Part shown: one piece after another, positions 3,818 to 63,688 of the stretch
How positions within the stretch are numbered: position 1 is the stretch's first letter
How the letters are laid out: every line of letters begins with the position of its first letter
Assembly (NCBI RefSeq): GCF_003966565.1
Contig: NZ_AP018718.1
Location: forward strand, 1,922,001 to 1,986,000
DNA: 64,000 nucleotides
Origin: Sulfuricystis multivorans
Lineage (GTDB): Bacteria; Pseudomonadota; Gammaproteobacteria; Burkholderiales; Rhodocyclaceae
Direction of reading: 5' to 3'
Program-made: the position numbers and the translations under genes
The notes under the pieces: model-generated
The model's database searches: none
Seen by the model: the letters and a program-made list of their open reading frames with translations, nothing else
Told to the model about the DNA's origin: nothing

Positions 3818-5325
3818 GATCGTTCCGGGAAATAACGGTCGCAGAAGTAGCAGCCAGAAAGCGGCAGCCACGCCGGCACCACATAATACTGGCGGCGGAC
3901 GCCCTCCAGCACCGTGTCGCGGAAGCTGGCATAGTCGAAACCCTCGCCGCGCACCACCCAGAAGCGCGCACCCCGATATTCGAAGTCATCGATCGCAACG
4001 CGGCGGAACCAACCGTCGTATTCGCCCGGATTTGGCTCGGTCTTGCGCAGCACGGTGATGTCGCGGCCATCCAGCTCACGCCAGTCGGTGAGGATGTCGT
4101 CATGGCGCGCATGTCCCGACCCGGGGCCGAGCACCGGCACATGACGGCGCTCAAGGTAGCCGAGGATCGCCGCATTCGAATAGCCGTCCGAGGCGAGCAG
4201 GGTTGCGCCGATGCGCGATCGTTCGACCAGCTCTCGCCCATCGAAGGTCAGCACCATGCTCGGATAGACATTCAGCGAACGCCAGGTTTCCAGCGGCAGG
4301 CTGACCAGCACCGCAAACAACACGACATGCAATGCGGCGAAGCCGGCGCAAAACCGCACGAGCTTTTCCAGCCCGCCAGACGCTGCGCGGCGGACCGCCA
4401 GCAGCAGCGCGAATGGCACGAAAGACAGCACCCAGTGCAGACCAATGGTCTTGAAGAACGACAGCAGGGCGAACAGCATCAGCGGCACCGCGGCGAGCAG
4501 GCTCAGACTGCGCTCGGTCGCAGATTCGGCGCTGGTGGAACGGCACGCCGGCGCCTTCCACCACGACATCCAGACGATTGGCGGCGTCAGCACATAGAGC
4601 AGCGTCACCAGATACAAAAGCGGCGTCCGCAAATTGAAGCCGATATTCGCCCCGCTGTGGCGATTGACGAAGTTGAACAGATAGTTCGTCCAGCAGTGTC
4701 CGCTGTTCCACCAGGCCATCAGCCCCAACGCCGGAATGCAGCAGGCATAGACGATGGCAAGTCCCTGCCAGGCCGAAGTCTTGCGCCGGCGCGCAGCATC
4801 GACCAGATAACCGAAACCGAGCAGCGCGGCGAAGTATTTGGACAGCACCGCGCCGGCGAGCAGCAGGCCGGCAAGCAGGTACCAGCGCCAATCATCATCT
4901 TGAGCTGCCCGCAGCCAGGCCAAGCCGGAGAGCACTGCGCAATAGACCAGCGCGGTATCGGTGGTGACCAGCACGTTCCAGACGAAGGGTGGCGCGAGCA
5001 GGATCACCGACGCCACTGCATCGCGCTGCCCAGCCGCCTGTGGAAAGAGGCGTGGCCAGACCAAGCGCACTGCCAGCGCAAGCAGCAGCGGCTGAATGAT
5101 CTGCGGCAGGCGCAGCCACCATGCCGCATCGCTCACCGTCAGCAGTACGGCGAGCCACCAGCCGATCATCGGCGGGTGATCGTAGAAGCCCCAATCGGGC
5201 TGCCGCCCCCACCAGTAGAAATACGCCTCGTCGCCGGTCATCGGCAAGGCGGCGGCCAGCCAGAAACGGAAAATGAGCGTCAGCCCGGCAGCGGCGAGGA
5301 AAAAGCGGCCGGACGTGATGGGCAT
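3805..5325 (-). CDS. GT39-like (ArnT/PMT) membrane glycosyltransferase
   Basis: This 506-residue protein has about 10-12 membrane helices. The periplasmic-loop motif TGDEAYFYWWGRQPDWGFYDHPPMI holds the DEAYYW..HPP signature of dolichyl/undecaprenyl-phosphate-sugar transferases (GT-C fold). Such enzymes move a sugar from a polyprenyl-phosphate carrier to lipid A, proteins or glycans. It lies between aroG (7 bp upstream) and the UbiA-family gene (overlap). The start at 5325 (MPITSGRFFLA) is chosen because longer forms run into aroG. The pairing with a polyprenyl-phosphopentose synthase suggests a pentose donor. A copy of the 20-nt dispersed motif lies inside the gene, antisense, at 4526-4545. 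Confidence 0.8.
   Translation of the reverse strand: MPITSGRFFLAAAGLTLIFRFWLAAALPMTGDEAYFYWWGRQPDWGFYDHPPMIGWWLAVLLTVSDAAWWLRLPQIIQPLLLALAVRLVWPRLFPQAAGQRDAVASVILLAPPFVWNVLVTTDTALVYCAVLSGLAWLRAAQDDDWRWYLLAGLLLAGAVLSKYFAALLGFGYLVDAARRRKTSAWQGLAIVYACCIPALGLMAWWNSGHCWTNYLFNFVNRHSGANIGFNLRTPLLYLVTLLYVLTPPIVWMSWWKAPACRSTSAESATERSLSLLAAVPLMLFALLSFFKTIGLHWVLSFVPFALLLAVRRAASGGLEKLVRFCAGFAALHVVLFAVLVSLPLETWRSLNVYPSMVLTFDGRELVERSRIGATLLASDGYSNAAILGYLERRHVPVLGPGSGHARHDDILTDWRELDGRDITVLRKTEPNPGEYDGWFRRVAIDDFEYRGARFWVVRGEGFDYASFRDTVLEGVRRQYYVVPAWLPLSGCYFCDRYFPERSCRR
4526..4545 (+). repeat. 20-nt dispersed motif, copy 1
   Basis: TCGGCGCTGGTGGAACGGCA, an exact match to TCGGCGCTGG-YNNN-ACGGCA. It lies antisense within the GT39 gene. 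Confidence 0.7.
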
Positions 5326-5332
5326 CGGCAGC

Positions 5333-6400
5333 TTATCGCGCGGCAATGGCGGCGCGCCGCTGCCGCACCGCTTCGGCCAGCTGGTCGAGCACGACGACGG
5401 TATCGTCCCAACCCAGGCAGGCGTCGGTGATCGACACCCCGTAGGCAAGCGGCTTACCGGGTTTCAGATCCTGGCGCCCCTCGTTGAGATTCGATTCGAT
5501 CATCACGCCGAAGATGCGCTCCTCGCCGGCGGCGATCTGTGCGGCGACATCGGCGGCCACCTCGAGCTGCCGCTTGTAATCCTTGCGGCTGTTGCCGTGC
5601 GAGAAGTCGACCATCACCCGCGCCGGCAGGCCGGCCTTGCCCAGCTCGATGCAGGCGGCCTCGATGCTGGCGTGATCATAGTTGGGCTGTCTTCCGCCAC
5701 GCAGGATGAGGTGGCAATCCTCGTTGCCGTGGGTCGAGACGATCGCCGAATGGCCGGCCTTGGTCACCGAGAGGAAATGGTGCGGCGCCTGCGCGGCGCG
5801 GATCGCATCGACGGCGATCTTGATGTTGCCATCGGTGCCGTTCTTGAACCCGACCGGGCAGGAAAGACCCGAAGCGAGCTCGCGATGCACCTGCGACTCG
5901 GTGGTGCGCGCGCCGATCGCGCCCCAGCTGATCAGGTCCGCGGTGTATTGCGGCGTGATCGTGTCGAGGAACTCGGTCGCGCACGGCAGCCCCATCTCGG
6001 TCAGCTCCCAGAGCAGACGACGGGCAAGCCGCAAGCCTTCGTTGATCTTGTAGCTGCCGTCGAGACGCGGATCGTTGATCAGACCTTTCCAGCCCACCGT
6101 GGTGCGCGGCTTTTCGAAATAGACGCGCATCACGATCAAGAGGTCTTCGTGCAGCCGGTCGTGTTCGGCCTTCAAGCGGTCGGCATATTCGCGCGCGGAA
6201 TCGAAATCGTGGATCGAGCAAGGCCCGACGATCACCAGCAGCCGGTCGTCGGCGCCATGCAAAATGCGATGGATCGCCGCACGCGCCTCGAACGTCGTCC
6301 GCGCAGCCTTCTCGCTGGCGGGATACTCGCGCAAGATATGGCCGGGGGGGGAGAGCTCCTTGATTTCTTTGATGCGGACGTCATCGACGATGTGTTTCAT
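5333..6400 (-). CDS. aroG: 3-deoxy-7-phosphoheptulonate (DAHP) synthase, class I
   Basis: This 355-residue enzyme condenses phosphoenolpyruvate and erythrose 4-phosphate in the first step of the shikimate pathway. The AroF/G/H signatures are present: VGPCSIHD, the PRTTVGWKGLINDP segment, the TESQVHRELASGLSCPVGFKNGT region and the metal-binding DFSHGNSRKD. Length and N-terminus fit the feedback-inhibited AroFGH type; which amino acid inhibits it cannot be read safely. A run of eight C residues (coding strand, about 6344-6351) sits in the N-terminal coding region. The gene heads an operon with the GT39 and phosphoribosyltransferase genes. Confidence 0.95.
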   Translation of the reverse strand: MKHIVDDVRIKEIKELSPPGHILREYPASEKAARTTFEARAAIHRILHGADDRLLVIVGPCSIHDFDSAREYADRLKAEHDRLHEDLLIVMRVYFEKPRTTVGWKGLINDPRLDGSYKINEGLRLARRLLWELTEMGLPCATEFLDTITPQYTADLISWGAIGARTTESQVHRELASGLSCPVGFKNGTDGNIKIAVDAIRAAQAPHHFLSVTKAGHSAIVSTHGNEDCHLILRGGRQPNYDHASIEAACIELGKAGLPARVMVDFSHGNSRKDYKRQLEVAADVAAQIAAGEERIFGVMIESNLNEGRQDLKPGKPLAYGVSITDACLGWDDTVVVLDQLAEAVRQRRAAIAAR

Positions 6401-8932: not shown

Positions 8933-8966
8933 AACACAATCCTATCACTTTGGTACCGGGCAGCGA

Positions 8967-10568: not shown

Positions 10569-12011
10569 CTAGCCGGTACCGCCCACCGTCATGCCGTCGA
10601 TGCGCAGCGTCGGCTGGCCAACGCCGACCGGCACGCTCTGGCCTTCCTTGCCGCAGGTGCCGACACCTGGATCGAGGGCGAGATCGTTGCCGATCATCGA
10701 CACGCGGGTGAGCACGTCCGGGCCGTTGCCGATCAGCGTCGCGCCCTTCACCGGCCGGGTGATCTTGCCGTTTTCGATCAGATACGCCTCGGCGGCCGAG
10801 AAGACGAACTTGCCGCTGGTGATATCGACCTGCCCGCCGCCGAAATTGGCGGCATAAAGCCCCTTCTTCACCGAGGCGATGATCTCCTGCGGATCCTTGT
10901 CGCCGGCTTCCATCGTCGTATTGGTCATGCGCGGAATCGGTAGATGGGCGAAGGATTCACGCCGGCCGTTGCCGGTGGGCGTAACACCCATCAGCCGCGC
11001 ATTGAGCGTGTCCTGCAGGTAGCCGACGAGGATGCCGTCCTCGATCAGCACGGTGCGCTGCGTTGGGACGCCTTCGTCGTCGATCGATAGCGAGCCGCGC
11101 CGATTGGACAGCGTGCCGTCGTCGACGACGGTGACGCCCTTCGCGGCGACGCGCTCGCCGATCCGGCCCGAGAACGCGGAGCTGCCCTTGCGGTTGAAGT
11201 CGCCTTCCAGGCCGTGGCCGATCGCCTCGTGCAGCAGGATGCCCGGCCAGCCGGGGCCGAGCACCACGGTCATCTCACCGGCGGGCGCAGGCATGGCGGC
11301 GAGATTGACGCGCGCCTGATGCACGGCCTTTTCCGCATAGTCCTGCAACACCGCGTCAGTGAAATACGCATAGTCGAAACGCCCGCCGCCGCCAGCGGAA
11401 CCCTGTTCGCGCCGACCGTTTTCTTCCAGGATCACGGTGAGCGAGACGCGGGAGAGCGGCCGCACATCGGCGGCAAGCCGGCCATCGGAACGCGCGACGA
11501 GGATCGTCTCCCAACTGCCGGCGATGTGCGCCATCACCTGGGTCACCCGTGGATCGGCGGCGCGCGCCAAAGCCTCGAGCCGCTCCAAGAGGCGCACTTT
11601 TTCCGCATCGGGCAGAGAGGCCAGCGGATCGTCAGGGGCATACAACGGGACGAGCGAATGACGTTTGAGCAGCGGCAAGCTGCTGCTGCCGCCAGCTGCG
11701 GCGATGGCGCGCACGGCGCGCGCGGCATCGAGCAGCGCGGCCAGACTGATGTCGTCGGAATAGGCGAAGGCGGTCTTGTCGCCGCTCACCGCGCGCACCC
11801 CGACGCCCTGCTCGATGTTGAAGCTGCCGGACTTGACGATGCCTTCCTCGAGGCTCCAGGCCTCCGAGCGGGAGAACTGGAAGTAGAGATCGGCATAGTC
11901 GATGCGGTGGCCGAACAGTTCGCCGAACACCCGGGAAAGCTGGCCAGCATCCAAGTCGTAGGGCGTCAGGAGATGACGTTCAGCGGTGGCGAAATGGGTC
12001 ATGGTATCCAT
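10569..12011 (-). CDS. tldD: TldD metalloprotease subunit
   Basis: This 480-residue protein matches TldD over its length (E. coli TldD is 481 residues). It has the metal-binding motif [11 protein letters not shown] near residue 264 and the conserved [10 protein letters not shown] near the C-terminus. TldD works with PmbA/TldE as a protease acting on unfolded peptides, and is needed for microcin B17 and CcdA processing in E. coli. The start at 12011 (MDTMTHF) gives the family length; 12002 is also possible. It lies 74 bp downstream of the nitrilase gene on the same strand, a common betaproteobacterial arrangement. No pmbA is in the window. Confidence 0.93.
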
Positions 12012-12042
12012 GGGGTTGGGTCGAATGCAGGATGTGGCGCCG

Positions 12043-12062
12043 TGCCGTGTCGCCAGCGCCGG
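12043..12062 (-). repeat. 20-nt dispersed motif, copy 2
   Basis: CCGGCGCTGGCGACACGGCA on the minus strand, with one mismatch to the consensus at the first base. It lies in the gap between the nitrilase gene and tldD, so it is non-coding with the start chosen for tldD. Confidence 0.6.
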
Positions 12063-12085
12063 GTTTGGACGATATGGGGGCAAAT

Positions 12086-19410: not shown

Positions 19411-20661
19411 ATGCCCGTCGATTACGCCACGCCCACGCCCGACCAACTGTTTCCCGTCGCCGGCGTCAGGCTCGGCACCGCTGAAGCCGGCATCCGCAAG
19501 GCAGGCCGCCGCGATCTGACGCTGATCGCCCTCGCCCCCGGCAGCCGGGTGGCCGGGGTATTCACGCAAAACCGCTTTTGCGCCGCTCCGGTGCACATCT
19601 GCCGCCAACATCTGAAAAGCGGCGAGATTCGCGCGCTGGTGATCAACACCGGCATCGCCAATGCCGGCACCGGAGCGCCGGGCCTTGCGGCCGCGCTGCA
19701 GTCCTGCGCCGCAGTGGCGAAGTTGCTGGACTTGCGTGCAGAACAAGTGCTGCCGTTCTCGACCGGCGTGATCCTCGAACCGCTGCCGGTGGAACGGTTG
19801 AAGGCGGGCCTTCCCGCCGCGCTTGCCGCGTTGAAACCGGATGGCTGGTATGAAGCCGCGCATGCGATCATGACCACCGACACCGTGGCCAAAGCCGCCA
19901 GCCGCAAAGTCGGCGAGGATCGGACGGCAGCCGTGATCACCGGCATCGCCAAAGGCGCCGGCATGATCCGGCCGAACATGGCGACGATGCTCGGCTTCGT
20001 CGCCACCGACGCGGCAATCAGTCAGCCGATGCTCGAGCGCCTGGTCAAGGAGGCCGCCGACGAATCCTTCAACTGCATCACCGTCGATGGCGATACCTCG
20101 ACGAACGATTCCTTCGTGGTGATCGCCACCGGCCAAGGCAAGGCGAAATTCGACACCATCGACGCCCCCGGCTGGCAGGAATTCAAGCAGGCCGTCATCG
20201 ACGTCGCGCGCGAGCTCGCGCAGGCGATCGTGCGCGATGGCGAAGGCGCCACGAAATACATCGAAATCGCCGTCGAAGGCGGCCGTACGGTCGCCGAATG
20301 CAAGGCAGTCGGCTACGCGATCGCCCATTCGCCGCTGGTGAAGACCGCCTTCTTCGCCTCCGATCCGAACCTCGGCCGCATCCTCGCCGCGATCGGCTAT
20401 GCCTGGAACAACGATCCGGCCTTGCGCGACCTCGACGACACGAAGGTGAAGGTCTGGCTGGCCAGCTGCGGCGAGGAAGTGCTGGTCGCCGAAAACGGCG
20501 GCCGCGCGGCGAGCTATCGTGAGGAAGACGGCGCACGCATCATGAAGGCCGCGGAGATTTCCGTACGCATCGACCTCGGTCGCGGCAGCCAGATGGCCAA
20601 GGTTTGGACCTGCGACCTCAGTCATGACTACGTCAAGATCAATGCCGACTATCGCAGCTGA
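19411..20661 (+). CDS. argJ: Bifunctional ornithine acetyltransferase / N-acetylglutamate synthase
   Basis: This 416-residue enzyme recycles the acetyl group in arginine synthesis, from N-acetylornithine to glutamate. The self-cleavage site is visible as Ala191-Thr192 in [16 protein letters not shown]; the Thr becomes the nucleophile of the beta chain. Other ArgJ motifs include [22 protein letters not shown] and [18 protein letters not shown] ribosome site sits at the end of glnE, fixing the start at 19411 and coupling the two genes. Confidence 0.96.
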
Positions 20662-25095: not shown

Positions 25096-26579
25096 ATGAA
25101 GCCGATTTCGACCGTCTGGCCCGCGCGGGCTACAACCGCATCCCGGTCACCCTCGAGACCTTCGCCGATCTCGACACCCCGCTGTCGATCTATCTGAAGC
25201 TCGCCGACGGCCCGCACTCGTTTCTGCTCGAATCGGTGCAAGGCGGTGAGCGTTTCGGCCGCTATTCGTTCATCGGGCTGACCACGCCGACGCGCATCGC
25301 CGTGACCGGTTCGACGATTTTGCTGCTCACCGGCAACCGGGTGGCCGAGCGGCGCGAGCATACCAACCCGATGTCCTACATTTCCGAGTTCATGGCGCGC
25401 TTCAAGGTGCCGGAGATGCCCAATCTGCCGCGCTTCACCGGCGGGCTGGTCGGCTATTTCGGCTACGACACGGTGCGTTACATCGAGCCGAAACTCGCCG
25501 ATGTGCAAAAGGCCGATCCACTCGGCGTGCCCGACATCTTGCTCCTGTTATGCGAGGAGATCGCGATCGTCGACAACCTCTCGGGAAAACTCACCCTGGT
25601 CGTCTATGCCGAACCCGGCTTTCCCGGTGCCTGGAAACAGGCGCAAGCCAGGCTCAAGGAGCTCATCGGCCGGCTGCGCGCGCCGGTGAAACTGCCGGCG
25701 GATTGCCATGCCGTGCCGCAAGCGCCGAGTTTCGAATTCTCCGAACAAGCCTTCCAGGATGCGGTGCGGCGGGCAAAGCAATACATCATCGACGGCGACA
25801 TCATGCAGGTGGTGCTCTCGCAGCGCATGAGCCGCCCTTTTGCAGCGAGTCCCCTGGCGCTCTATCGAGCCTTGAGAACGCTCAACCCATCGCCGTACAT
25901 GTTCTTCTTCGATTTCGGCGACTTCCAGGTGGTCGGGGCCTCGCCGGAAATCCTCGTGCGTCTCGAAACCGAGGATGGCAGGCGCAAGGTCACCGTGCGG
26001 CCGATCGCCGGCACCCGCAAGCGCGGCGCCAGCGCGGCGGAAGATGCCGCGCTCGCCGCCGAGCTGCTGGCCGATCCGAAGGAACGTGCCGAGCATTTGC
26101 AACTGCTCGATCTGGGCCGGAACGATATCGGCCGGATCGCGAAGATCGGCTCGGTGAAGGTCACCGACAGCTACATCATCGAGCGCTACTCGCACGTGAT
26201 GCACATCGTTTCCAACGTCGAAGGCGAGCTCAAAGACGACGAGGGGCCGGTCTCGGTCTTGAAGGCCACCTTCCCGGCCGGCACCGTCTCCGGCGCGCCG
26301 AAGGTGCGCGCGATGGAGATCATCGACGAGCTGGAACCGACGAAGCGCGGCATCTATGCCGGTGCGGTCGGCTATCTGGGCTTTACCGGCGACATGGATC
26401 TGGCCATCGCCATTCGCACCGCGATCGTCAAGGACGGCCGCATCTTCGTGCAGGCCGGCGCGGGCATCGTCGCCGACTCCGATCCGCAAGCCGAATGGCA
26501 GGAGACGCTCAACAAGGCAAGAGCGCAGCTACGCGCCGCCGACATGGCCGAATGCGGACTGGATACCCGTCTCGACTGA
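25092..26579 (+). CDS. trpE: Anthranilate synthase component I
   Basis: This 495-residue enzyme makes anthranilate from chorismate with ammonia supplied by TrpG. The tryptophan feedback site LLESVQGGERFGRYSFIG is present near the N-terminus. The chorismate-binding core includes GDIMQVVLSQRM, GASPEILVRLE, TVRPIAGTRKRG, LGRNDIGRIAKIGSVKV and FPAGTVSGAPKVRAMEIIDELEP. The ATG overlaps the gph stop (ATGA). Its partner genes trpG-trpD-trpC lie 17 kb away, while tupA overlaps its 3' end by 28 nt. This gene order is unusual. Confidence 0.96.
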   Translation: MNEADFDRLARAGYNRIPVTLETFADLDTPLSIYLKLADGPHSFLLESVQGGERFGRYSFIGLTTPTRIAVTGSTILLLTGNRVAERREHTNPMSYISEFMARFKVPEMPNLPRFTGGLVGYFGYDTVRYIEPKLADVQKADPLGVPDILLLLCEEIAIVDNLSGKLTLVVYAEPGFPGAWKQAQARLKELIGRLRAPVKLPADCHAVPQAPSFEFSEQAFQDAVRRAKQYIIDGDIMQVVLSQRMSRPFAASPLALYRALRTLNPSPYMFFFDFGDFQVVGASPEILVRLETEDGRRKVTVRPIAGTRKRGASAAEDAALAAELLADPKERAEHLQLLDLGRNDIGRIAKIGSVKVTDSYIIERYSHVMHIVSNVEGELKDDEGPVSVLKATFPAGTVSGAPKVRAMEIIDELEPTKRGIYAGAVGYLGFTGDMDLAIAIRTAIVKDGRIFVQAGAGIVADSDPQAEWQETLNKARAQLRAADMAECGLDTRLD

Positions 26580-28077: not shown

Positions 28078-28772
28078 ACGACCAGACTCGCCCTTGGCTC
28101 GTCCTCGACGGCCTCACGCTGATCGAGCGCGGCATCACGCGGGTTGCCGGCATCGATGCAAAACTCGGCGCTGGCCGCACGGCAATCCTTGGCCCCAACG
28201 GCGCCGGCAAGAGCACCCTGCTGCGGCTGATGCACGGACTGTTGCGTCCTAGCGCCGGTCGCGTGATCTGGCCGCAACCGCGGACCCAAGGCATGGTGTT
28301 CCAGCGCCCGGTGATGCTGCGCTGCCGCGTGTCGGCGAACGTCGGCTACGGACTGAAGCTGCGCGGTGTCCCGGCGGACGAGCGCCGGCGCCGCACGCAA
28401 GAAGTACTCGAACGCGTCGGTCTCGCGCATCTCGCCCAGCGTCAGGCACGGCGCCTATCGGGTGGCGAGCAGCAGCGCATCGCGCTGGCGCGCGCCTGGG
28501 CGCTGGCGCCCGAAGTGTTGTTTCTCGACGAACCCACCGCCAGCCTCGACCCGGCAAGCAGCCGCGAAGTCGAGCGCATCATCGCCGAAATCGCCGCCAG
28601 CGGCACGAAGATCGTGCTGACCACGCACAATCTCGGCCAGGCCAGGCGGCTTGCCGACGAGGTGATCTATCTGGAAAACGGCCGGCTCGTCGAGCAGACG
28701 CCGGCAGCGGAATTCTTCCACCAGCCGCGCACCGCCGCAGCGCAAGCGTTCATCGCCGCGGAAATCGGCTGA
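28074..28772 (+). CDS. tupC: Tungstate ABC transporter ATP-binding protein (TupC-like)
   Basis: This 232-residue ATPase has Walker A GPNGAGKST, a Q loop (MVFQRPVMLR), the signature LSGGEQQRIALARAWA, Walker B VLFLDEPTASLD and the H-loop TTHNLGQA. It energises the TupAB import system. The gene ends 12 bp from the convergent GspE-like gene, with no terminator visible between them. A copy of the 20-nt dispersed motif (28165-28184) encodes LGAGRTA just before the Walker A loop. Confidence 0.9.
   Translation: MNDQTRPWLVLDGLTLIERGITRVAGIDAKLGAGRTAILGPNGAGKSTLLRLMHGLLRPSAGRVIWPQPRTQGMVFQRPVMLRCRVSANVGYGLKLRGVPADERRRRTQEVLERVGLAHLAQRQARRLSGGEQQRIALARAWALAPEVLFLDEPTASLDPASSREVERIIAEIAASGTKIVLTTHNLGQARRLADEVIYLENGRLVEQTPAAEFFHQPRTAAAQAFIAAEIG
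28165..28184 (+). repeat. 20-nt dispersed motif, copy 3
   Basis: TCGGCGCTGGCCGCACGGCA, an exact consensus match. It lies in sense orientation inside tupC, encoding GAGRTA in the frame used by the other sense copies. Confidence 0.6.
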
Positions 28773-33320: not shown

Positions 33321-33787
33321 TCCTGGGCTTCTCCGATGTCGAGGGTGAGCCGCTCGTGGCGGTCGAGCGATTGCAAGGTCAGTGCCGGGGGCTGGATCGC
33401 GACCACCCGATAGCGCGCGTCGAAGGTATCGCCGACGCGCACCACGAGGGTTTCCGCGCCGCGCGCGAGGAATACCGCCCAGCCGTCGCGCTCGTCATGT
33501 TGCTTGCCGATCACGCGCCACGGCAGGCTCGGTGCAAGATTCGGCGCTGGTGCGACGGCACCCGGCAGGTCTTCCGTCGCCGCCGCCGGCACAGGCGCGA
33601 TGGCGGCCGTGGCAAAGGGGTCGCCGCTCGCCGCGGGCAGGGCCTTGCGCGCTGCCAATGCCCGCAGGTAGGGCAGGCGCTCGGCCTGCGCGGATGACGG
33701 AGTTGGCGTGGAAGCTTCACCATAGGCCGCGACGAGCGCCACCGCGATCAGCGTCAGGGCGAGCCAGGGCAGACGCGACGAGCTCAT
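33317..33787 (-). CDS. GspC/PilP-like inner-membrane assembly protein
   Basis: This 156-residue protein has one N-terminal membrane helix (residues 7-21), a Pro/Ala-rich linker, and a small beta domain (LPWRVIGKQHDERDGWAVFLARGAETLVVRVGDTFDARYRVVAIQPPALTL). That domain resembles the HR domain of GspC or PilP, which contacts the secretin. Position next to the secretin supports this. Sequence alone is weak evidence. A copy of the 20-nt motif lies antisense in the linker (33541-33560). Confidence 0.65.
   Translation of the reverse strand: MSSSRLPWLALTLIAVALVAAYGEASTPTPSSAQAERLPYLRALAARKALPAASGDPFATAAIAPVPAAATEDLPGAVAPAPNLAPSLPWRVIGKQHDERDGWAVFLARGAETLVVRVGDTFDARYRVVAIQPPALTLQSLDRHERLTLDIGEAQE
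33541..33560 (+). repeat. 20-nt dispersed motif, copy 4
   Basis: TCGGCGCTGGTGCGACGGCA, an exact consensus match. It is antisense in the Pro/Ala-rich linker of the GspC/PilP-like gene, in a different reading frame from copy 1. Confidence 0.7.
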
Positions 33788-35380: not shown

Positions 35381-36923
35381 GCGCCACCTCTTCGAGGGTC
35401 GTCTGCCCGGCACGGGCCAGCTGCAAGGCGGCATCGCGCAGGCTACGCATGCCCTGTCGGCGCGCCTCGGCCTTGATCTCGGCCAGCGGCGCCCGTTGGG
35501 CTATCAGGGCTCGCAGACGATCGTCGAGCGCCAGGATCTCGGCGACCGCCCGACGGCCCCGATAGCCGGTACCGCGACACTCGCCGCATCCCCTGCCCCG
35601 GCGCAAGCCATCCCAGGCGGCTTGTGCAGGCAGGCGCAATGCGGCGAGCGCGCGTGAGGAAGGTGTCGCGGCTTCGGCGCAGTGCGGGCAGACAGTGCGC
35701 AGCAGGCGCTGCGCCCAGACACCGTTGAGCGCCGAAGTCAGGGCATAGGGATCGATGCCCAGATGGGCGAAGCGGTTGAAGACGTCGAAGACATCGTTGG
35801 CATGCACCGTCGAGAGCACCAGGTGCCCGGTCAGCGCCGATTGCACGGCGATCTCGGCGGTCTCGGCGTCGCGAATCTCGCCGATCATGATCTTGTCCGG
35901 ATCGTGGCGCAGGATCGAGCGCAGGCCGCGGGCGAAGGTGAGCCCTTTCTTTTCATTGACGGGAATCTGCAGCACGCCGGGAAGCTCGTATTCGACCGGG
36001 TCCTCGATCGTGATCACCTTGTCGCGACCGTCGTGGATCTCCGCCAGCACGCCGTAGAGCGTCGTCGTCTTGCCGCTGCCGGTGGGTCCCGTGACCAGCA
36101 GCATCCCGTAAGGCAGCACCGCCAGAGCACGCATTTGGGCCAGCTCGTCGGCAGCGAAGCCGAGCCGTTCGAGGCTCAGCGTTTCGCCGTCGGCCACCAG
36201 CCGGCGTTTGTCGAGGATACGCAACACGGCATCCTCGCCGTGGATGCTCGGCATGATCGACAGCCGCAGATCGACGCGTCGGCCGGCGAAGCGCACCGTG
36301 AAACGGCCGTCTTGCGGGATGCGCCGCTCGGCGATGTCCAGCTCGGCGAGCACTTTGAGACGCGAGATCGCCTGCTCGGCGGTATCGCGGCCGGCCGCCT
36401 CGGCGATCCGTTCGAGCACGCCGTCGATGCGGTAACGCACCACCAGGCCGTGCGGCGTCGCCTCGATATGGACGTCGCTGGCACCGAGCCGCAGCGCATC
36501 GTGCAACGTCGCATTGATGAGCCGCACGATGGGGCTCGCCTCATCAGCGGCATGGGCCGCGTCAACCTCTGCCTCGCGGGGTGCCGTCTTGCCAGCGCCG
36601 AGTTTCTCCTGGGCGAGGTCTGCCAATGAACTCGTCGCTTCCGCCTGTCTGTCGAGCCAGGCGGTGAGGTCTTCCGGTCGGGCGAGATACCACTCGAGCG
36701 GGCGGCCGGCGCGCGCCTCGAGCCAACGCTGTCGGTCGGCATCGAGCGGATCGTCGGAAACGCCGACGACCCGCCGGCCGTCGCGCAACAGCGCACAGCG
36801 TCGCGCCCGGGCCTCACTGAGAGGCACGCGGCCGAACAACGGCTGCAGCCGGTGCAGTTGATAAAGCGAGAGGATCGGGAAATCGATCTCTTCGCGGAGC
36901 TGGGCCTCGAGCGGCGCGTTCAT
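35361..36923 (-). CDS. gspE: GspE/PilB-type secretion ATPase
   Basis: This 520-residue cytoplasmic ATPase has the N-terminal GspE-N domain and the complete catalytic set: Walker A GPTGSGKTTTLYG, Asp box TIEDPVEY, Walker B IMIGEIRDAETAEIA and His box STVHAND. It also has the zinc tetracysteine CPHC...CGEC. It powers pseudopilus assembly. The ATG overlaps gspF (ATGA). A copy of the 20-nt motif (36582-36601) encodes LGAGKTA in the linker between the N-terminal domain and the core. It is paralogous to the degenerate protein at 28785-30041. Confidence 0.95.
   Translation of the reverse strand: MNAPLEAQLREEIDFPILSLYQLHRLQPLFGRVPLSEARARRCALLRDGRRVVGVSDDPLDADRQRWLEARAGRPLEWYLARPEDLTAWLDRQAEATSSLADLAQEKLGAGKTAPREAEVDAAHAADEASPIVRLINATLHDALRLGASDVHIEATPHGLVVRYRIDGVLERIAEAAGRDTAEQAISRLKVLAELDIAERRIPQDGRFTVRFAGRRVDLRLSIMPSIHGEDAVLRILDKRRLVADGETLSLERLGFAADELAQMRALAVLPYGMLLVTGPTGSGKTTTLYGVLAEIHDGRDKVITIEDPVEYELPGVLQIPVNEKKGLTFARGLRSILRHDPDKIMIGEIRDAETAEIAVQSALTGHLVLSTVHANDVFDVFNRFAHLGIDPYALTSALNGVWAQRLLRTVCPHCAEAATPSSRALAALRLPAQAAWDGLRRGRGCGECRGTGYRGRRAVAEILALDDRLRALIAQRAPLAEIKAEARRQGMRSLRDAALQLARAGQTTLEEVARVTLQT
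36582..36601 (-). repeat. 20-nt dispersed motif, copy 5
   Basis: TCGGCGCTGGCAAGACGGCA on the minus strand, an exact match. It lies in sense orientation within gspE and encodes GAGKTA in a poorly conserved linker. Confidence 0.7.
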
Positions 36924-45248: not shown

Positions 45249-46090
45249 GCGACATCCTGAACAGGATCCTCGCCGTCAAGCGCGAGGAAGTCGCCGCCGC
45301 GAAAGCCGCCAAACCCTTTGCTGCGATCCGTGACGAAGCACGGGCGCAGCCCGCGCCGCGCGACTTCGTCGGCAGCATGCGCACGAAAATCGGCGCTGGT
45401 GGAAATGGTAACGTCCTGCCGGGCGCCGACTCGCCTCGGACAGTCGGCGCTGGCGGGACGGCAGTCATCGCCGAGATCAAGAAGGCCAGCCCCTCGCAAG
45501 GCGTGATCCGTCCGGACTTCCATCCCGCCCAGATCGCCGCCGACTATGAAAGGCATGGCGCTACCTGTCTATCGGTGCTCACCGACCGGCGATTCTTCCA
45601 AGGCGCGCCCGAATATCTGCAACAGGCACGGGCCGCCTGCAGCTTGCCGGTGCTGCGCAAGGATTTCGTGATCGACCCGTATCAGGTCTATGAAGCCCGT
45701 GCGATGGGGGCGGATGCGATCCTCTTGATCGTCGCCGCACTCGAAGACTCGCAGATGGCGGAACTCGAAGAAATCGCCTTCAGCCTAGGGATGGCGGTGC
45801 TGGTGGAAAGCCACGATGCCGGCGAAATCGACCGGGCGCTTCGACTTGAGACACCGCTCATCGGCATCAACAACCGCAATCTGCGCACTTTCGAGGTGAG
45901 CCTCGATACCACGCTCTCACAGCTTTCCCGCATCCCAGCCGATCGCATCGTCGTCACCGAATCCGGCATCCAGACCCCCGCCGACGTCGCATCGATGAAG
46001 GCCCAGGGTGTGCATGCCTTCCTGGTCGGCGAAGCCTTCATGCGCGCACCCTCTCCGGGGGCGGAACTTTCGCGGCTGTTCGGAATGTGA
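45245..46090 (+). CDS. trpC: Indole-3-glycerol phosphate synthase with an inserted segment
   Basis: This 281-residue TIM-barrel enzyme closes the indole ring. Core motifs are [70 protein letters not shown] and [10 protein letters not shown]. Just before the catalytic [11 protein letters not shown], at residues 49-72, there is an extra Gly-rich segment. It consists of two direct copies of the dispersed motif (45390-45409 and 45444-45463) around a degenerate inverted copy. Usual enzymes have only a few residues here. The insert is in frame and in an exposed N-terminal region, so the enzyme is probably active. Confidence 0.94.
45390..45409 (+). repeat. 20-nt dispersed motif, copy 6a (degenerate)
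   Basis: TCGGCGCTGGTGGAAATGGT. The first 10-nt half is perfect and the second half has diverged. It lies within the trpC insertion. Confidence 0.55.
45444..45463 (+). repeat. 20-nt dispersed motif, copy 6b
   Basis: TCGGCGCTGGCGGGACGGCA, an exact match within the trpC insertion, encoding GAGGTA. A degenerate inverted copy lies between it and copy 6a, at about 45414-45429. Confidence 0.75.
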
Positions 46091-55375: not shown

Positions 55376-57661
55376 TCATCGCGTCAAAGCGAGATAGAGC
55401 ATCGGCAGCTGCTCCGGCAGGCGTTCGATCCGGTCGAGCACCCGCCAGCGATGGCCGAAGATTTCGCGCACGTAGTCGTCGGCCTTGGCATCGAGTGATA
55501 GGCAGAAAGGGATCACGCCTTGCGCATCGAGCTCTTCGACGGCTTTCTTCGCATCCGCTTTCAGATGTTCGGCATCGGTGACATCGATGTCGGCCGGCTC
55601 ACCGTCGGTGAGCAAGAGCAGGATACGGCGATCGGCCTTGCGGGCGGAAAGATAATGGCCGGCATGCCTGAGCGCCGCGCCCATACGGGTGGAAAAGCGC
55701 GCCTGCATCGCAGCGATGCGCCCTTTCACCGTGTCGTTCCAACGCTCCGCAAAACCCTTGAGGTGCAGATAGCGCACCTCGTGGCGCGTATTCGAATGAA
55801 ACCCGGCGATCGCCAGCGGGTCGCCCAAGCGGTCGATCGCCCAGGCCAGCAGCGCGACCGCCTCTTGGCCGAGCTCGAGGATCGTCTGTGCCGTCCCACC
55901 AGCGCCGACTTTATGGTTCAACGACTCGGACAGATCGACCAGCAATAGCACGGCGATGTCGCGGCCATCGGTGCGGTGGCTCATGTTGATGCGCGGATCG
56001 GGCTGGCTGCCGGCCTTGAAGTCGATCAAGGAGCGGATCGCCACGTCGAGATCGAGCTCGCTGCCCTCCTCCTGATAGCGGATACGCACCTTGTCCTGCG
56101 GCTTGAGCATATCCAGCAAGCGTTTGAGATGCTTGGCGAGCGCGGCATGTTTGGCGAGCAAGCGGTCGATGTCCGCCGGATTGCCCGACGGATGCAACGT
56201 TTCATAGACACTCACCCAGTCGGGGCGGTAGGTCTTCGAGCTGTAATCCCACTCGTGATAGTGGCGCGGCGGCAGGCCGAGGATTTCGGACTCCTTCGCC
56301 AGCCGCTTGTCGGAATCGTCGAAGAACTCCTCGTCGTCGGAATCCTCGATGTAGCGCCACAGATGCCGGTTGTCGTCGCGGTAATCGACCTCGGTGTCTT
56401 CGAAACGCACCTTGGGCAGCTGATCGCTCTGGCGGCGCGTCTTTGCGACGTAGGCCAGCGCCAGCTCGGCCACCGCGGCCGTACTCGATGCGCCCTTTGC
56501 CAGCAGCGCATGAAAGCGCGCCACCGTCTCCTGGATCGCCGCATCGCGATAGCCGTGGTCGGGATCGAGACAGGCGCGCGAGAGCATCGCCAGCCGATGG
56601 CGCAGGCAAGAGGTGGTTTCTGGATCGCAGGCATCTTCGATCGGCTTTGGATGCAGCGCCAGAAAAATGCGCGCCAGGCCCGGATATTCGCGCATCAGCA
56701 AGCAATCGATGCGTGCATCTTCGAGGAACTCGACGGCCAGCCGCTGGAACGGGCTCCAGTTGTCGGCGATCTGGGCCTGGCTCCAACGGCGGTGGCCGAC
56801 CATGTGAGCCAGCGTCGCCCGATAGCGGTCGATGCCGGCCACGCCCCGGGCGTCGTCATAGACGTCGGGAACGCGCAAACCCAGCTTGTCGTAATAGGGC
56901 TGCGGCTTGCGCAGCTCATCGAAGGCGGTCGAATAGGGAACCAGATGGTCGGCATCGCGCCACAAGCCGCGCAAGTAGAGATCGAGCTGGCGTTCGACGT
57001 CGGCGAACAGAGTGCCGTGGCGCTCGCGCTGCAAGACCGCCTTGCTATCGGCCAGCCGCAGCGCGAAATAGTCCACCTGCCGTTCCGGATGGTGGCTGTA
57101 GTTGCGGATGCCGTATTCGACCCAGTTCTTGAGCCCTTTCAGGCTCAGTAGATCGAGCAGCCTAGGCGCCTGTTCGAAGAAATGCGGCAGCCCCGGGCTT
57201 GGGAAGGTTGCGTGGCGACCGTGGATAGAGCCGGTGGTACGCATCATCAGATCGCGCGCGATGGCGAGATAAGCTTCGAGCTGTTGCTGCGATTGCAGCC
57301 GCCGCGCCACGGCAGCGAGAGTCTGCAGGAAGCCGGCGATCGCCTTGCCGTTGGGGGATTTCTGCATCGCCCGCACGAAGTCCATCACGGCGGGCAAGGC
57401 CGTCATACCGACTGCGCGCACGACCGACGGCCATTCCTCGAGGAAGATCAGCATCGGTTCCGGGCCGCGGCCGAGCTTGCCGAGGTATCGCGCCGCATCG
57501 AGATAGGCATCGAAGTCGGAGCGCTCGATGACGAGCAGGGCCTCCGCCATCATTTCCTCGAATACCTCGGCGACTTGCGGAAAGCGCGTATCGAGCCGCG
57601 CCCAGTATTCCCGCATCAGCGGGTGCTGGTAGTCGGAGAGCGCCGGATCGGCGGGCGACAC
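55376..57661 (-). CDS. cbbO: RuBisCO activase subunit CbbO
   Basis: This protein of about 761 residues has a long helical N-terminal region and a C-terminal von Willebrand factor A domain with a MIDAS motif (LLLVDLSES...; TDGEPADID) and the CbbO/NorD signature GDPLAIAGFHSNTRHEVRYLHLKGF. CbbO works with the AAA+ protein CbbQ to remove inhibitors from RuBisCO active sites. The start is a GTG; 57661 is preferred for spacing from GAGGTGG, while 57667 is also possible. A copy of the 20-nt motif (55889-55908) encodes KVGAGGTAQ just after the MIDAS strand. Confidence 0.93.
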   Translation of the reverse strand: MSPADPALSDYQHPLMREYWARLDTRFPQVAEVFEEMMAEALLVIERSDFDAYLDAARYLGKLGRGPEPMLIFLEEWPSVVRAVGMTALPAVMDFVRAMQKSPNGKAIAGFLQTLAAVARRLQSQQQLEAYLAIARDLMMRTTGSIHGRHATFPSPGLPHFFEQAPRLLDLLSLKGLKNWVEYGIRNYSHHPERQVDYFALRLADSKAVLQRERHGTLFADVERQLDLYLRGLWRDADHLVPYSTAFDELRKPQPYYDKLGLRVPDVYDDARGVAGIDRYRATLAHMVGHRRWSQAQIADNWSPFQRLAVEFLEDARIDCLLMREYPGLARIFLALHPKPIEDACDPETTSCLRHRLAMLSRACLDPDHGYRDAAIQETVARFHALLAKGASSTAAVAELALAYVAKTRRQSDQLPKVRFEDTEVDYRDDNRHLWRYIEDSDDEEFFDDSDKRLAKESEILGLPPRHYHEWDYSSKTYRPDWVSVYETLHPSGNPADIDRLLAKHAALAKHLKRLLDMLKPQDKVRIRYQEEGSELDLDVAIRSLIDFKAGSQPDPRINMSHRTDGRDIAVLLLVDLSESLNHKVGAGGTAQTILELGQEAVALLAWAIDRLGDPLAIAGFHSNTRHEVRYLHLKGFAERWNDTVKGRIAAMQARFSTRMGAALRHAGHYLSARKADRRILLLLTDGEPADIDVTDAEHLKADAKKAVEELDAQGVIPFCLSLDAKADDYVREIFGHRWRVLDRIERLPEQLPMLYLALTR
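55889..55908 (-). repeat. 20-nt dispersed motif, copy 7
   Basis: TCGGCGCTGGTGGGACGGCA on the minus strand, an exact match. It is in sense orientation inside cbbO, encoding GAGGTA. Confidence 0.7.
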
Positions 57662-57668
57662 AGCCACC

Positions 57669-58472
57669 TCAAACGAACGTGGCGTCGATGGCGTGGTCGA
57701 GCGTGGCGCGGATGTCGGCGTCGTCGGTGATCGGCCGCACCAGCGCCATGCGACAGGCATCCACCTCCGGCACGCCGCGGCGGATCAAGGTCGCGGCATA
57801 GACCAACAGGCGCGTCGAGATGCCCTCATCCAGACCATGTCCTTTGAGATTGCGTCCGACCTGACCGATCTTCACCAACTTCGCCGCCGTGCCCTCGGCC
57901 AGGCCGGTTTCCTTGGCGATGATCGCCGTTTCGAGCTCGGGCGGCGGGTAGTCGAAATCGAAGGCGGTAAAGCGTTGCTTGGTCGATTGCTTCAAGTCCT
58001 TCATCAACGACTGGTAGCCGGGGTTGTAGGAGATCACCAGCTGGAAATCGGGATGCGCCTCGACGAGTTCGCCCTTCTTGTCCAGCGGCAGCACGCGGCG
58101 ATGGTCGGTGAGCGGGTGGATGACGACCGTGGTGTCCTGGCGCGCTTCGACGATCTCATCGAGATAACAGATCGCGCCGATGCGTGCCGCGACGGTCAAA
58201 GGGCCATCCAGCCAGCGCGTGCCATTGGCATCCAAAAGCCAGCGGCCGACCAGGTCGGAAGCCGTCATGTCCTCGTTGCAGGCCACCGTGATCAAGGGCT
58301 TGCCGAGCTTCCAGGCCATGTATTCGACGAAGCGGCTCTTGCCGCAGCCGGTGGGACCCTTGACCATCACCGGTAGACGCGCGGCATAGGCCGCCGTGAA
58401 GAGCTCGACCTCCCTGCCCTGCGGCTGGTAGAAGGGTTCCTGCTTGACGAGGTATTGCGTCTTGTCGATCAT
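57669..58472 (-). CDS. cbbQ: RuBisCO activase AAA+ subunit CbbQ
   Basis: This 267-residue MoxR-type AAA+ ATPase has Walker [17 protein letters not shown], Walker [14 protein letters not shown], sensor region [24 protein letters not shown] and a C-terminal arginine region. With CbbO it reactivates inhibited RuBisCO using ATP. It follows cbbM after a terminator hairpin, and cbbO begins within 8 bp of its stop. Confidence 0.96.
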
Positions 58473-58508
58473 CCCGTTATCCGATCAGAAAAGTCAGGAA
58501 TAGCCAGC

Positions 58509-58533: not shown

Positions 58534-58549
58534 CGTGCCCGAAATCGAC

Positions 58550-59935: not shown

Positions 59936-60007
59936 CGTGGGTTTCCTCCGTAAGTGGTGGTGTGTCGTTTTCAGTGAAACAATGCAAGCATCTTAAGCAA
60001 ATGGTTC

Positions 60008-60032
60008 ATAAATAACAGTCACGTGTTTTTAT
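60008..60032. promoter_or_regulatory. Candidate CbbR box C (cbbM promoter)
   Basis: ATAAATAACAGTCAC followed by GTGTTTTTAT aligns with boxes A and B. It lies 73-97 bp upstream of the cbbM start, a usual distance for LysR-type activator sites. Confidence 0.7.
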
Positions 60033-60040
60033 CGTGACCA

Positions 60041-60817: not shown

Positions 60818-60843
60818 GCCGGGGAAGATAGCCATCCACAATC

Positions 60844-60880
60844 ATAAGTGACAGTCAAGTTTTCTTATTCCAATGATAAG
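60844..60880. promoter_or_regulatory. Candidate CbbR box B (cbbY-cbbR divergent region)
   Basis: ATAAGTGACAGTCAAG then TTTTCTTAT and a further GATAAG align with boxes A and C. It lies between divergent cbbY and cbbR, where LysR-type regulators usually bind to control themselves. Confidence 0.7.
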
Positions 60881-60895
60881 ATCGCAGGCATAGAA

Positions 60896-60915
60896 TCGGC
60901 GCTGGCGAGACGGCA
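60896..60915 (+). repeat. 20-nt dispersed motif, copy 8
   Basis: TCGGCGCTGGCGAGACGGCA, an exact match in the non-coding leader of cbbR, 22 bp before the start codon. Confidence 0.75.
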
Positions 60916-60937
60916 CCGGCAGCCAGGAGTGGATGAA

Positions 60938-61858
60938 ATGAAACATGTCACCTTGCGCCAGCTCAGAGTCTTCGAATCCGTCGCGCGTCATCTGTCGTTC
61001 TCACGCGCGGCGGAAGAACTGCATCTGACTCAACCGGCCGTGTCGATGCAGGTCAAGCAGCTCGAAGAGCTGGCAGGACTGCCGCTCACCGAGATGATCG
61101 GCAAGAAGGTCTATCTCACCCAGGCGGGGGAAGAAGTCGCGCGTCATGCCCGGCGCATCGCCCAACAATTGCGTGAGGCCGAAGAAGCGCTCGATGCCTT
61201 GAAAGGCGTCAAGGGCGGCCGTCTGTCGATCGGCGTCGTCAGCACGGCGAAGTATTTCGCACCGCGCCTCTTGGCCGAGTTCCGCCGTCGTCATGACGGC
61301 ATCATGCTGGATCTGCGCGTCGGCAATCGCGAGACGGTGGTGCATCAACTCGCCGACAACGAGATCGATCTGGCGATCATGGGTCAGCCGCCACGGGAAT
61401 TCGCCACCGTCTCGGCCGCCTTCGCCGATCATCCGCTCGTCATCGTCGCCGCACCCGATCATCCGCTCGCCGCGCGCAAGCGCATCACGGCCGCGGAACT
61501 CGCCGAGGAAACCTTTCTGATCCGCGAGCCCGGCTCCGGCACCCGCGCGACGATGGAACGCTTCTTTGCCGATGCCGGCATCGCACCGCGCCAGCTCCTT
61601 GAACTCGCCGGCAACAACGAAACGATCAAACAGGCCGTGATGGCCGGCCTGGGACTAGCCTTCATCTCTGGGCACAGCGTCGCGCTCGAATGCGAGGTCG
61701 GCCGGCTGGTCCAGCTGCCGGTCGCCGGCACGCCGGTGATGCGCCGCTGGTTCGTCGTGCAGCGCGCCGAGAAGGAGCTGCTCCCGCTCGCCGCAGCCTT
61801 CCGCGCCTTCCTGCTCGACGAGGCGCCGGCGCTGATGGGCGGAAAAACCGCGCACTGA
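60938..61858 (+). CDS. cbbR: LysR-type transcriptional regulator CbbR
   Basis: This 306-residue protein has an N-terminal winged helix-turn-helix (LRQLRVFESVARHLSFSRAAEELHLTQPAVSMQVKQLE) and a LysR effector domain with GVVSTAKYFAPRLLAEFRRRH, typical of CbbR. It activates cbb genes in response to Calvin-cycle metabolites or redox state. The start at 60938 (MKHVTLRQL) has the AGGAGTGG ribosome site; upstream in-frame codons cross box B and the dispersed motif. It is divergent from cbbY-cbbM. Confidence 0.95.
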   Translation: MKHVTLRQLRVFESVARHLSFSRAAEELHLTQPAVSMQVKQLEELAGLPLTEMIGKKVYLTQAGEEVARHARRIAQQLREAEEALDALKGVKGGRLSIGVVSTAKYFAPRLLAEFRRRHDGIMLDLRVGNRETVVHQLADNEIDLAIMGQPPREFATVSAAFADHPLVIVAAPDHPLAARKRITAAELAEETFLIREPGSGTRATMERFFADAGIAPRQLLELAGNNETIKQAVMAGLGLAFISGHSVALECEVGRLVQLPVAGTPVMRRWFVVQRAEKELLPLAAAFRAFLLDEAPALMGGKTAH

Positions 61859-61882
61859 GAATCAGCGCTGGATAGAGGGCAC

Positions 61883-62925: not shown

Positions 62926-62956
62926 AATGCCTCCATCGTTATGAAATAATGAGCCA

Positions 62957-63688
62957 ATGATACCGCGCTTCCACTGCCCCCCTCCGCTGGCCCCCGGGGC
63001 GCTCGTCGAGCTGCCCGAGACGGTTTGCCATCATGCCCTGCGCGTGCTGCGCATGAGAAACGGTGATCGTCTCATCCTCTTCGACGGCAATGGCGGCGAG
63101 TGGCAGGCGACGCTCAAAGTCGGCGCTGGCGGCACGGCACAAGCGCTGTTGGGTGAATTCGACCCGATCGAGCGCGAATCCCCTTTACAGGTCACGCTTG
63201 CCCAGGCGCTGCCCGCCGGCGACAAGATGGACTGGATCGTCGAAAAATGCGTCGAGCTGGGGGTGGCGGCGATCCAGCCGCTCGCCGCGAAGCGCAGCGT
63301 GATGAGGCTTTCTCTGGAACGCATGGCACGCCGCGTGCAACACTGGAATGCGATCGCCGCCGCGGCCTGCGAACAATGTGGCCGCAACCGTGTCCCGATC
63401 GTCGCGCCGGTGCTTGACCTGCATCAATATCTGGCGACGGCGCAGGCGCAGAATGCCTGCCGTCTGCTGCTCGCGCCACAAGGCGAGGACACGCTCCGCT
63501 CGCTAGCGAGGCCCACGGCGCCGATCGTGGTGATGGTCGGGCCCGAAGGCGGCTGGGACGACGGGGAGATCATCGCCGCGCAGGCGGCGGGTTTCGCCCG
63601 GGTGCGCCTTGGCCCGCGCGTGCTGCGCACCGAGACCGCCGGCGCGGCGCTGTTGGCGGCGCTGCAGGCGCTGTGGGGAGACTTTTGA
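62957..63688 (+). CDS. rsmE: 16S rRNA (uracil-1498-N3)-methyltransferase
   Basis: This 243-residue SPOUT methyltransferase has a PUA-like N-terminus (HHALRVLRMRNGDRLILFDGNGGEW). The catalytic SPOUT core has ITLAQAL-like VTLAQALPAGDKMDWIVEKCVELGV, VMVGPEGGWDDGEI and LGPRVLRTETAGAALLAAL. It methylates U1498 of 16S rRNA. A copy of the 20-nt dispersed motif (63120-63139) encodes KVGAGGTAQ at the join of the two domains. Confidence 0.95.
   Translation: MIPRFHCPPPLAPGALVELPETVCHHALRVLRMRNGDRLILFDGNGGEWQATLKVGAGGTAQALLGEFDPIERESPLQVTLAQALPAGDKMDWIVEKCVELGVAAIQPLAAKRSVMRLSLERMARRVQHWNAIAAAACEQCGRNRVPIVAPVLDLHQYLATAQAQNACRLLLAPQGEDTLRSLARPTAPIVVMVGPEGGWDDGEIIAAQAAGFARVRLGPRVLRTETAGAALLAALQALWGDF
63120..63139 (+). 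repeat. 20-nt dispersed motif, copy 9
   Basis: TCGGCGCTGGCGGCACGGCA, an exact match in sense orientation inside rsmE, encoding GAGGTA at the inter-domain join. Confidence 0.7.

Follow-up and report, generated by a model that had tools for sequence, protein, structure and literature searches.

The systems closest to the element reported here are words that direct the uptake of DNA. DNA uptake sequences (DUS) of the Neisseriaceae vary as species dialects around a fixed core, occupy permissive places of the core genome and are more conserved than their flanks (PMC3630211, PMC2397512), and inverted DUS pairs are frequent as terminators in Neisseria (PMC3630211). Uptake signal sequences (USS) of the Pasteurellaceae prefer one orientation in reading frames and show no general chromosomal orientation bias (PMC2346458). 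Sequence-specific uptake has been called unique to Neisseria and Pasteurellaceae (PMC3630211, 2013). Here, we describe a bipartite 24-nt word that is dispersed over a 64,000-nt stretch of the genome of Sulfuricystis multivorans, a member of the Rhodocyclaceae (the window, C1:1922001-1986000; the genome, G000, comprises 2.81 Mb in three contigs, C1 to C3). An initial annotation of the window had noticed the dispersed motif; the observation is confirmed, and its extent is larger than first described. By analogy with the above systems, we consider it likely that the word works like a DNA uptake sequence.

With DUS, the word shares copy numbers of hundreds to thousands on both strands, dialects that differ at few positions, permissive core-genome positions, a conservation exceeding that of the flanks and dyads in some species. 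It differs from DUS in being an unrelated bipartite word of 24 nt rather than ATGCCGTCTGAA and in having fewer copies; inverted pairs were rare in our sample, and the centre of the motif is an insertion target. A direct relation to Neisseria DUS via the stretch TGCCGTC was considered and rejected; as this stretch is lost in the dialects ending in ACGGTG and GCGGCG (see below), its sharing is probably due to chance. Likeness to USS consists in the asymmetry of the word, in an orientation and frame preference within genes and in the lack of a general chromosomal bias (PMC2346458), while the USS word is AAGTGCGGT or ACAAGCGGT (PMC3630211) and belongs to another family.

A dispersed word in four dialects

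A sequence logo and sites found by expectation-maximization (EM) gave AAAN-TCGGCGCTGG-YNNN-ACGGCA as the working motif. The core, as initially annotated, was borne out, while the AAA conserved at positions -4 to -2 of TCGG had gone unnoticed. Positions -5 and -1 show a weak bias in some genomes, and there is no conservation further out (one flank logo took in a few chance loci from other phyla); the flanks are unrelated from copy to copy.

A pattern search of the window recovered all eight exact copies of the core and a one-mismatch copy at the coordinates initially assigned to them (Table 1). That list was incomplete, with a second one-mismatch copy, at 25709, having been overlooked; three further matches have 3 mismatches. 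A supposed degenerate copy at 45390 differs from the full-length word at more than 3 positions and represents the head of a 54-bp unit that sits directly before the copy at 45444. Altogether, 13 matches with up to 3 mismatches compare with a mean of 1.79 and a maximum of 7 in 100 dinucleotide shuffles of the window, and the core TCGGCGCTGGYNNNACGGCA occurs 201 times exactly in the whole genome (80 forward, 121 reverse), the reversed pattern on neither strand (0 and 0). The motif is thus far above chance, as had been proposed. The exact copies are accompanied by a halo of near matches: 464 kb of G000 contained 41, 24 and 13 matches with 0, 1 and 2 mismatches, respectively, compared to 0, 0 and 0 for the reversed pattern. 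EM sites have a density of about 2.2 per 10 kb (98 in 443 kb).

The two smaller contigs, C2 and C3, make up 9% of G000. They hold none of the 80 forward copies, and 21 of the 121 reverse places could still lie there; 40 kb sampled from them contained no match within 2 mismatches. We infer that both contigs are plasmids. Their GC content is lower (55-57% in the parts read, L234 and L235), parts of them resemble plasmid records, and they have over-represented words of their own, e.g. TAATCCCCTC and GGGATTACAA. Independently, in 424 kb sampled from G000 the 10-mers ATTGTCCATT, AATCTGGGTT and GGGAGAGGGG are strongly over-represented (20-24 copies each) and look like pieces of separate repeat families or of an array.

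Counting the word in whole genomes by its ending distinguishes four dialects (Table 2). Because the query for the ACGGCA ending allowed only CTGG and those for the other three endings CYGG, ACGGCA counts are slightly low; reversed controls gave 0 matches in the ACGGCA runs and in one other-ending run, and eleven matches in the remaining two runs together. The word is carried by 17 of 18 congeneric genomes; each of these and G000 have 162-449 copies in all. G004 and G016 are near-empty for ACGGCA because they use another dialect. In a tree built from TrpC and RsmE, the congener without the motif, G005, sits basally on a long branch, which fits loss of the motif as well as its late gain. Two genomes of other genera, G019 and G026, share the word; G055, of a further genus and counted for the ACGGCA ending only, has mainly ACGGCG in sampled stretches. 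The remaining 40 genomes of other genera have 0-4 copies in all.

Table 2. Copies of the word in whole genomes, by ending
Genome	ACGGCA	ACGGCG	ACGGTG	GCGGCG
G000	201	4	2	0
G001	326	107	1	2
G002	177	246	12	3
G003	394	7	0	2
G004	2	17	415	7
G005	0	0	0	0
G006	94	67	1	0
G007	51	366	8	11
G008	32	320	3	5
G009	33	323	10	13
G010	39	367	4	2
G011	258	184	3	4
G012	104	152	2	1
G013	269	14	1	3
G014	164	146	7	1
G015	36	349	5	10
G016	0	4	3	362
G017	354	3	1	0
G018	72	124	2	1
G019 (other genus)	26	422	53	12
G026 (other genus)	12	176	3	5
G055 (further genus)	49			

Among the matches listed, word-bearing loci carry the titles Sulfuritalea, Rugosibacter, Sulfurisoma and Rhodocyclaceae bacterium. A general pattern of the word, counted in 42 named genomes to which these loci led, occurs 0 to 400 times, for example 289 times in Sulfurisoma C21, 187 and 170 times in Rugosibacter WOFB27 and GW715, 261 times in Sulfuritalea UWPOB_SULF1, once in Ca. 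Desulfobacillus and not at all in Lautropia. An Azonexus-labelled genome (G120) has only three copies, two of them with the same letters 7 kb apart (C35:61463 and 68450), as if DNA had been acquired from a motif-bearing relative. In a viral collection, one contig (L153:882-2238) has five copies of the motif, all on the same strand, and four of them lie within 316-bp tandem repeats.

Constraint on the word at orthologous sites

The proposal of the initial annotation that the constraint acts on DNA rather than on protein survived both a codon-aware control and a comparison of orthologues. Rough gene calling on part of the genome yielded 344 genes, which contain 22 exact cores, compared to a mean of 0.15 and a maximum of 2 in 60 synonymous-codon shuffles; with up to 2 mismatches, 50 matches compare with 6.7.

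We compared trpC among 18 congeneric genomes, G019 and 11 outgroups, leaving out G012, for which only part of trpC was found. The word is at the same place in 17 of the 18 congeneric genomes (in G009 split by a 27-bp insert), and 15 of the 17 copies are in the majority dialect of their own genome. The G019 gene has a disrupted copy, while in G005 and the 11 outgroups the site is occupied by different residues, with no gap; these motif-free orthologues do not show GAGxTA in other codons. The same gap-free pattern is seen in IspH (G017 vs G002), in IleRS (G004 vs eight congeners) and in a 680-aa open reading frame (ORF) of G016 (vs G017), which we take to be RecG-like. At these loci, where motif-less orthologues align without a gap, solo copies arose by substitution rather than by insertion. 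Over all pairs in which one partner lacks the motif, 107 are gap-free near the site and many others have gaps of 1 to 16 residues there, which are not decisive either way; because several of the gap-free pairs are distant paralogues and prove little, we rely on trpC, IspH, IleRS and the G016 ORF. At the few loci that align clearly, an origin of solo copies by insertion was rejected, and no clean empty sites were seen. Between G000 and G017, 213 of 220 fixed positions are identical at 11 aligned sites, compared to an average of about 0.80 in the flanks of this small sample. We conclude that the word is constrained as DNA and shows a concerted dialect at an orthologous site.

Copies within genes favour a frame in which the sense translation is KVGAGxTA (21 of 29 in the sample, counting near matches, by crude gene calls); the initial annotation had stated that sense copies always read GAGxTA, which holds for most of them. 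The gene caller placed the window sites at 4522, 28161 and 36582 differently from the Pfam-supported ORFs, and the overall figure of 53 intragenic sites out of 84 is therefore unreliable in detail. The initially assigned gene contexts stand wherever Pfam is informative, i.e. for PMT/GT39 in antisense, for ABC ATPase, T2SSE, VWA, IGPS and RNA methyltransferase in sense and for TldD- and LysR-type genes at their 5' ends; for ORF 33317-33787(-), in which the copy is antisense, there was no match to Pfam.

Table 1. Copies of the word and the 54-bp unit in the window
Feature	Position	Strand	Core	Context
Motif copy, core exact (4526-4545), AAAN one mismatch	4522..4545	+	4526	Antisense to PMT/GT39-type gene 3805-5448(-)
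One-mismatch copy (C for T, core position 1)	12043..12066	-	12043	5' end of tldD-type ORF 10569-12083(-); possibly upstream of the true start
Degenerate copy, 3 mismatches	19906..19929	+		Orthologous place in G004 is a copy in the G004 dialect, ACGGTG
One-mismatch copy	25709..25732	-	25709	Antisense in trpE-type gene 24981-26579(+)
Exact copy, sense	28161..28184	+	28165	In ABC-ATPase ORF 27750-28772(+)
Core exact, AAAN one mismatch	33537..33560	+	33541	Antisense to ORF 33317-33787(-)
Exact copy, sense	36582..36605	-	36582	In T2SSE (gspE-type) gene 35361-37859(-)
54-bp in-frame unit, 18 codons	45386..45439	+		In trpC motif; motif head plus inverted motif-like half
Terminal trpC copy, core exact	45440..45463	+	45444	trpC 45245-46090 (IGPS by Pfam); site solo in most congeners examined, mostly in own dialect
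Exact copy, sense	55889..55912	-	55889	In VWA-protein gene 55376-57760(-); orthologous site with 54-bp unit in G017, without motif in G010
Core exact, AAAN one mismatch	60892..60915	+	60896	Just before or at start of LysR-type (cbbR) ORF 60848-61858
Exact copy, sense	63116..63139	+	63120	In rsmE ORF 62957-63688 (RNA methyltransferase by Pfam)

Short inserts at one bond of the word

The bond TCGGCG^CTGG in the centre of the word is a target for short, lineage-specific inserts in several lineages; we draw this conclusion because orthologous uninterrupted sites exist and because one element is found in both orientations. Units of 54 bp, predicted to form a strong hairpin, occur one to four in tandem and are closed by the motif. 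Among the fetched stretches, we counted 22 such arrays in G000, 27 in G017 and 4 in G003; the loci were partly picked via trpC protein matches and the count also required a motif after the unit, so that these numbers are not genome totals. Via the inserted peptide, a trpC query hit more places in G000 (20 rows), G017 (29), G003 (9) and G006 (4), some rows being two matches in one array. These four genomes form one clade in the TrpC and RsmE tree.

An uninterrupted orthologous motif was found at seven of the 54-bp loci, i.e. trpC, ispH, L449, L346, L454 (whose counterpart is the window copy at 55889), L458 and L461. The length of the arrays varies between orthologues (two units in L222 and one in L467; one in L438 and two in L471; four in L450 and two in L474). 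The orthologous place truly lacks a motif in L114 for L447, in G016 for L456, in G005 for L466, in G010 for L454, in L048 and in G000 for the L330 array at 562, and in G002, G004 and G005 (as printed) for ispH, and the G000 orthologue of L464 has a degenerate word only; in the array comparison, the label "none" was also given to solo motifs truncated at the edge of a flank (G014 trpC, several ispH rows).

Other inserts occupy the same bond. All 13 copies of a 23-27-bp element (in G007, G009, L045, L077, L093, L112 and L120) lie at TCGGCG^CTGG inside a motif or degenerate motif, 11 in one orientation relative to it and 2 in the other, and the 27-bp element of G009 has uninterrupted orthologous sites at trpC. 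Likewise, all five copies of a 39-bp element (in G011, L083 and L131) are at this bond, and an 81/84-bp insert is found there at two places (G008, L020). The 13 and five copies were sought by their own sequence without requiring a motif, in loci many of which had been fetched for holding one. A loose 17-nt query for the 23-27-bp element returned 20 matches, nine of which failed the in-motif test; two of the nine (L077, L120) are the reverse-orientation copies and the other seven have 3 mismatches. With the 81-bp query, two of four matches failed, each with 7 mismatches. The seven and the two we take for chance; reversed controls gave 1 match for the 17-nt, 3 for the 81-bp and 0 for the 39-bp query.

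In three cases, one and the same orthologous motif is occupied by inserts that differ between lineages: a 54-bp unit in G000 and G017 vs the 27-bp element in G009 at trpC, a 54-bp unit vs the 27-bp element in L045 at the L448 locus, and two 54-bp units vs the 39-bp element in L131 at the L443/L463 locus. Insert lengths are mostly multiples of three. The inserts would have arisen by site-specific insertion, those of the direct-repeat type (54 and 81/84 bp) by either insertion or tandem duplication. In addition, rsmE of G003 (L410) is interrupted within the motif by a long in-frame insert, which follows AAAGTCGG, two bases before the bond, and is itself followed by the ACGGCA end of the word.

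A search of a phage collection with the window 54-bp unit and its motif found nothing similar, and a three-unit array gave one short match to plasmids (43 bases at 86%, E 4e-3), which we take for chance. Like MIRU-type and Rickettsia palindromic elements, the 54-bp units form short tandem arrays of variable length and are in frame in some proteins. Unlike those elements, the 54-bp arrays that we counted end in the 24-nt motif, as the count required, and the 23-27-bp and 39-bp elements, for which the element itself served as query, are located at one bond of the motif.

These inserts bear on an alternative explanation, according to which the word is the site of a site-specific endonuclease or recombinase that cuts TCGGCG^CTGG, short elements insert there and the solo copies constitute the network of targets. 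The consistent use of one bond by the 23-27-bp element in both orientations and by the 39-bp element, the fit of the 54-bp units to it, the solo orthologous sites at seven loci and the three loci with different inserts per lineage all agree with such an enzyme. However, inserts are present at far fewer places per genome than solo sites, and a mere target offers no obvious reason for a concerted change of dialect or for many births by substitution. No such endonuclease or recombinase turned up, with no search having been aimed at one. We regard this explanation as rather unlikely.

Chromosomal arrangement and a probable role as an uptake sequence

The arrangement of the copies bears on a second alternative, a binding site of a chromosome-organising or segregation protein that acts over the whole chromosome. 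As had been suggested as a check, we examined spacing and found too few short intervals compared to random placement. In 1.63 Mb from ten genomes, 20 intervals are below 1 kb, compared to 38.4 expected, and 0 of 2000 simulations were as low. The first 2.125 Mb of G000 contain 165 exact cores; their spacing has a coefficient of variation of 0.96, which by itself is not unusual (37% of simulations as low), but only 2 intervals are below 1 kb vs 6-19 expected. An organising protein would fit this evenness, the conserved asymmetric word and the lack of copies in the 40-kb sample of the two smaller contigs, and dialects would be expected of any DNA-binding protein and its sites. On the other hand, among the 180 of 201 G000 places that were listed, there is no evident concentration at one place, and reverse copies outnumber forward ones to either side of the shift in GC skew near 1.35 Mb. 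Orientation is therefore not related to the replichores, and a replication polarity of the KOPS or Chi type was rejected. Furthermore, matS, parS and KOPS sites are shorter than 24 nt, palindromic or polar. We consider a chromosome organiser improbable.

Another initial suggestion, that the word is a mobile mini-element, some 24 nt long, with insertions in genes, would agree with dispersed copies on both strands and with the 54-bp units, which do insert. For the 54-bp unit and other short inserts the suggestion stands; for solo copies it fails on the gap-free motif-less orthologues at trpC, ispH, ileS and one further gene, the halo of near matches and the unrelated flanks, and as an explanation of the word it is very improbable. 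Equally improbable is a Chi-like recombination hotspot, which could well be genome-wide and lie in core genes such as trpC, ispH and ileS, as known Chi sites are far shorter than this 24-nt word with its variable positions and as orientation does not follow replichores.

Of the roles that the initial annotation had proposed, with an interpretation that is partly supported overall, an uptake signal is the one best supported, namely by the dialects, the halo, the permissive sites and the even spacing. In such a system, the type IV pilus or competence machinery would include a DNA receptor at the cell surface that binds the asymmetric 24-nt word and favours the import of fragments that carry it. 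Imported fragments would recombine into the chromosome, and alleles with a better match would spread as a consequence; this biased import would act as a molecular drive, to which selection for the uptake of DNA from kin may or may not contribute. Over time, it would fill permissive positions of the core genome and maintain the near-match halo; within a species, copies would follow the receptor when its preference shifts, giving rise to dialects.

Some components of a suitable machinery are present. comEC is found in G000 and 17 of the 18 congeners, and a ComP_DUS-type minor pilin in G000 and 16 of the 18. In G016, comEC matches lie in two pieces on C4 and C77, one with a 537-aa open frame, which may reflect an assembly break. 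G000 encodes 15 prepilin-like proteins. Its ComP_DUS pilin (by Pfam) belongs to a pilin operon that adjoins ispH, with PilW-like and other pilin neighbours, one of which appears FimT-like by reading of its sequence. A model of this PilE-type protein (mean pLDDT 81) shows the fold of minor pilins in general, with PilV (5v23) as the best match and only weak matches, ranking 7 and 8, to ComP (5hz7 and 2nba; E 0.02 and 0.039). The likeness to the minor pilins ComP, PilE and FimT (PMC8897410; PDB 5hz7, 2nba, 4noa, 5v23) lies in the ComP_DUS pilin adjoining ispH; the difference is that the modelled fold is that of a general minor pilin and that ComP_DUS pilins also occur where there is no motif. The presumed receptor may be a minor pilin that biases uptake, with the PilE/ComP-type or FimT-type pilins next to ispH as candidates only.

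Several observations weigh against an uptake sequence. comEC and ComP_DUS-type pilins are equally common in motif-less relatives, including G005, and hence do not track the motif; by eye, no residue followed the dialects in alignments of PilE (22 loci), FimT (21) or PilV (18). Several genomes mix two endings (e.g. 177 ACGGCA and 246 ACGGCG in G002, 164 and 146 in G014), and the trpC copies of G002 (ACGGCA) and G006 (ACGGCC) are not in the majority ending. Of three G000 sites aligned with G003, only one retains 90% of its fixed positions; the two that do not are the trpC and ispH sites, which carry the 54-bp insert in G000. The strands, near equal in the congeners in line with an uptake sequence, are unequal in G000 (80 vs 121). 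Pairs closer than 150 bp are rare, with two convergent and one direct in the sampled stretches of ten genomes; inverted pairs serving as terminators, a trait that we treat as common for uptake sequences rather than defining, are not frequent here. We know of no description of an insertion target at the centre of an uptake sequence, and such a target could indicate that cleavage or recombination is the main function of the word. Finally, some 160-450 exact copies are fewer than the 943 to about 3600 given for Neisseriaceae, and the word is longer (PMC3630211).

In the literature searched, there was no report of an uptake sequence in Rhodocyclaceae, of this word or of transformation of these organisms; literal TCGGCGCTGG in papers was unrelated in all matches listed. 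The word, the family and the insertion bond are new here. We tentatively propose that Rhodocyclaceae possess a third, independent family of uptake signals, the centre of which would be a site of breakage or strand transfer that is exploited by selfish mini-elements, themselves imported preferentially. If true, a third, unrelated uptake word would exist in environmental bacteria, and the self-tagging of DNA would evolve repeatedly, with four dialects within one genus and absence from one basal member. Drive vs selection and the co-evolution of receptor and word would become testable in a new clade, and the insertion bond inside the word would provide a handle on the physical events at such a signal. 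The dialects would also predict which of the mostly uncultured relatives are transformable, and with what DNA.

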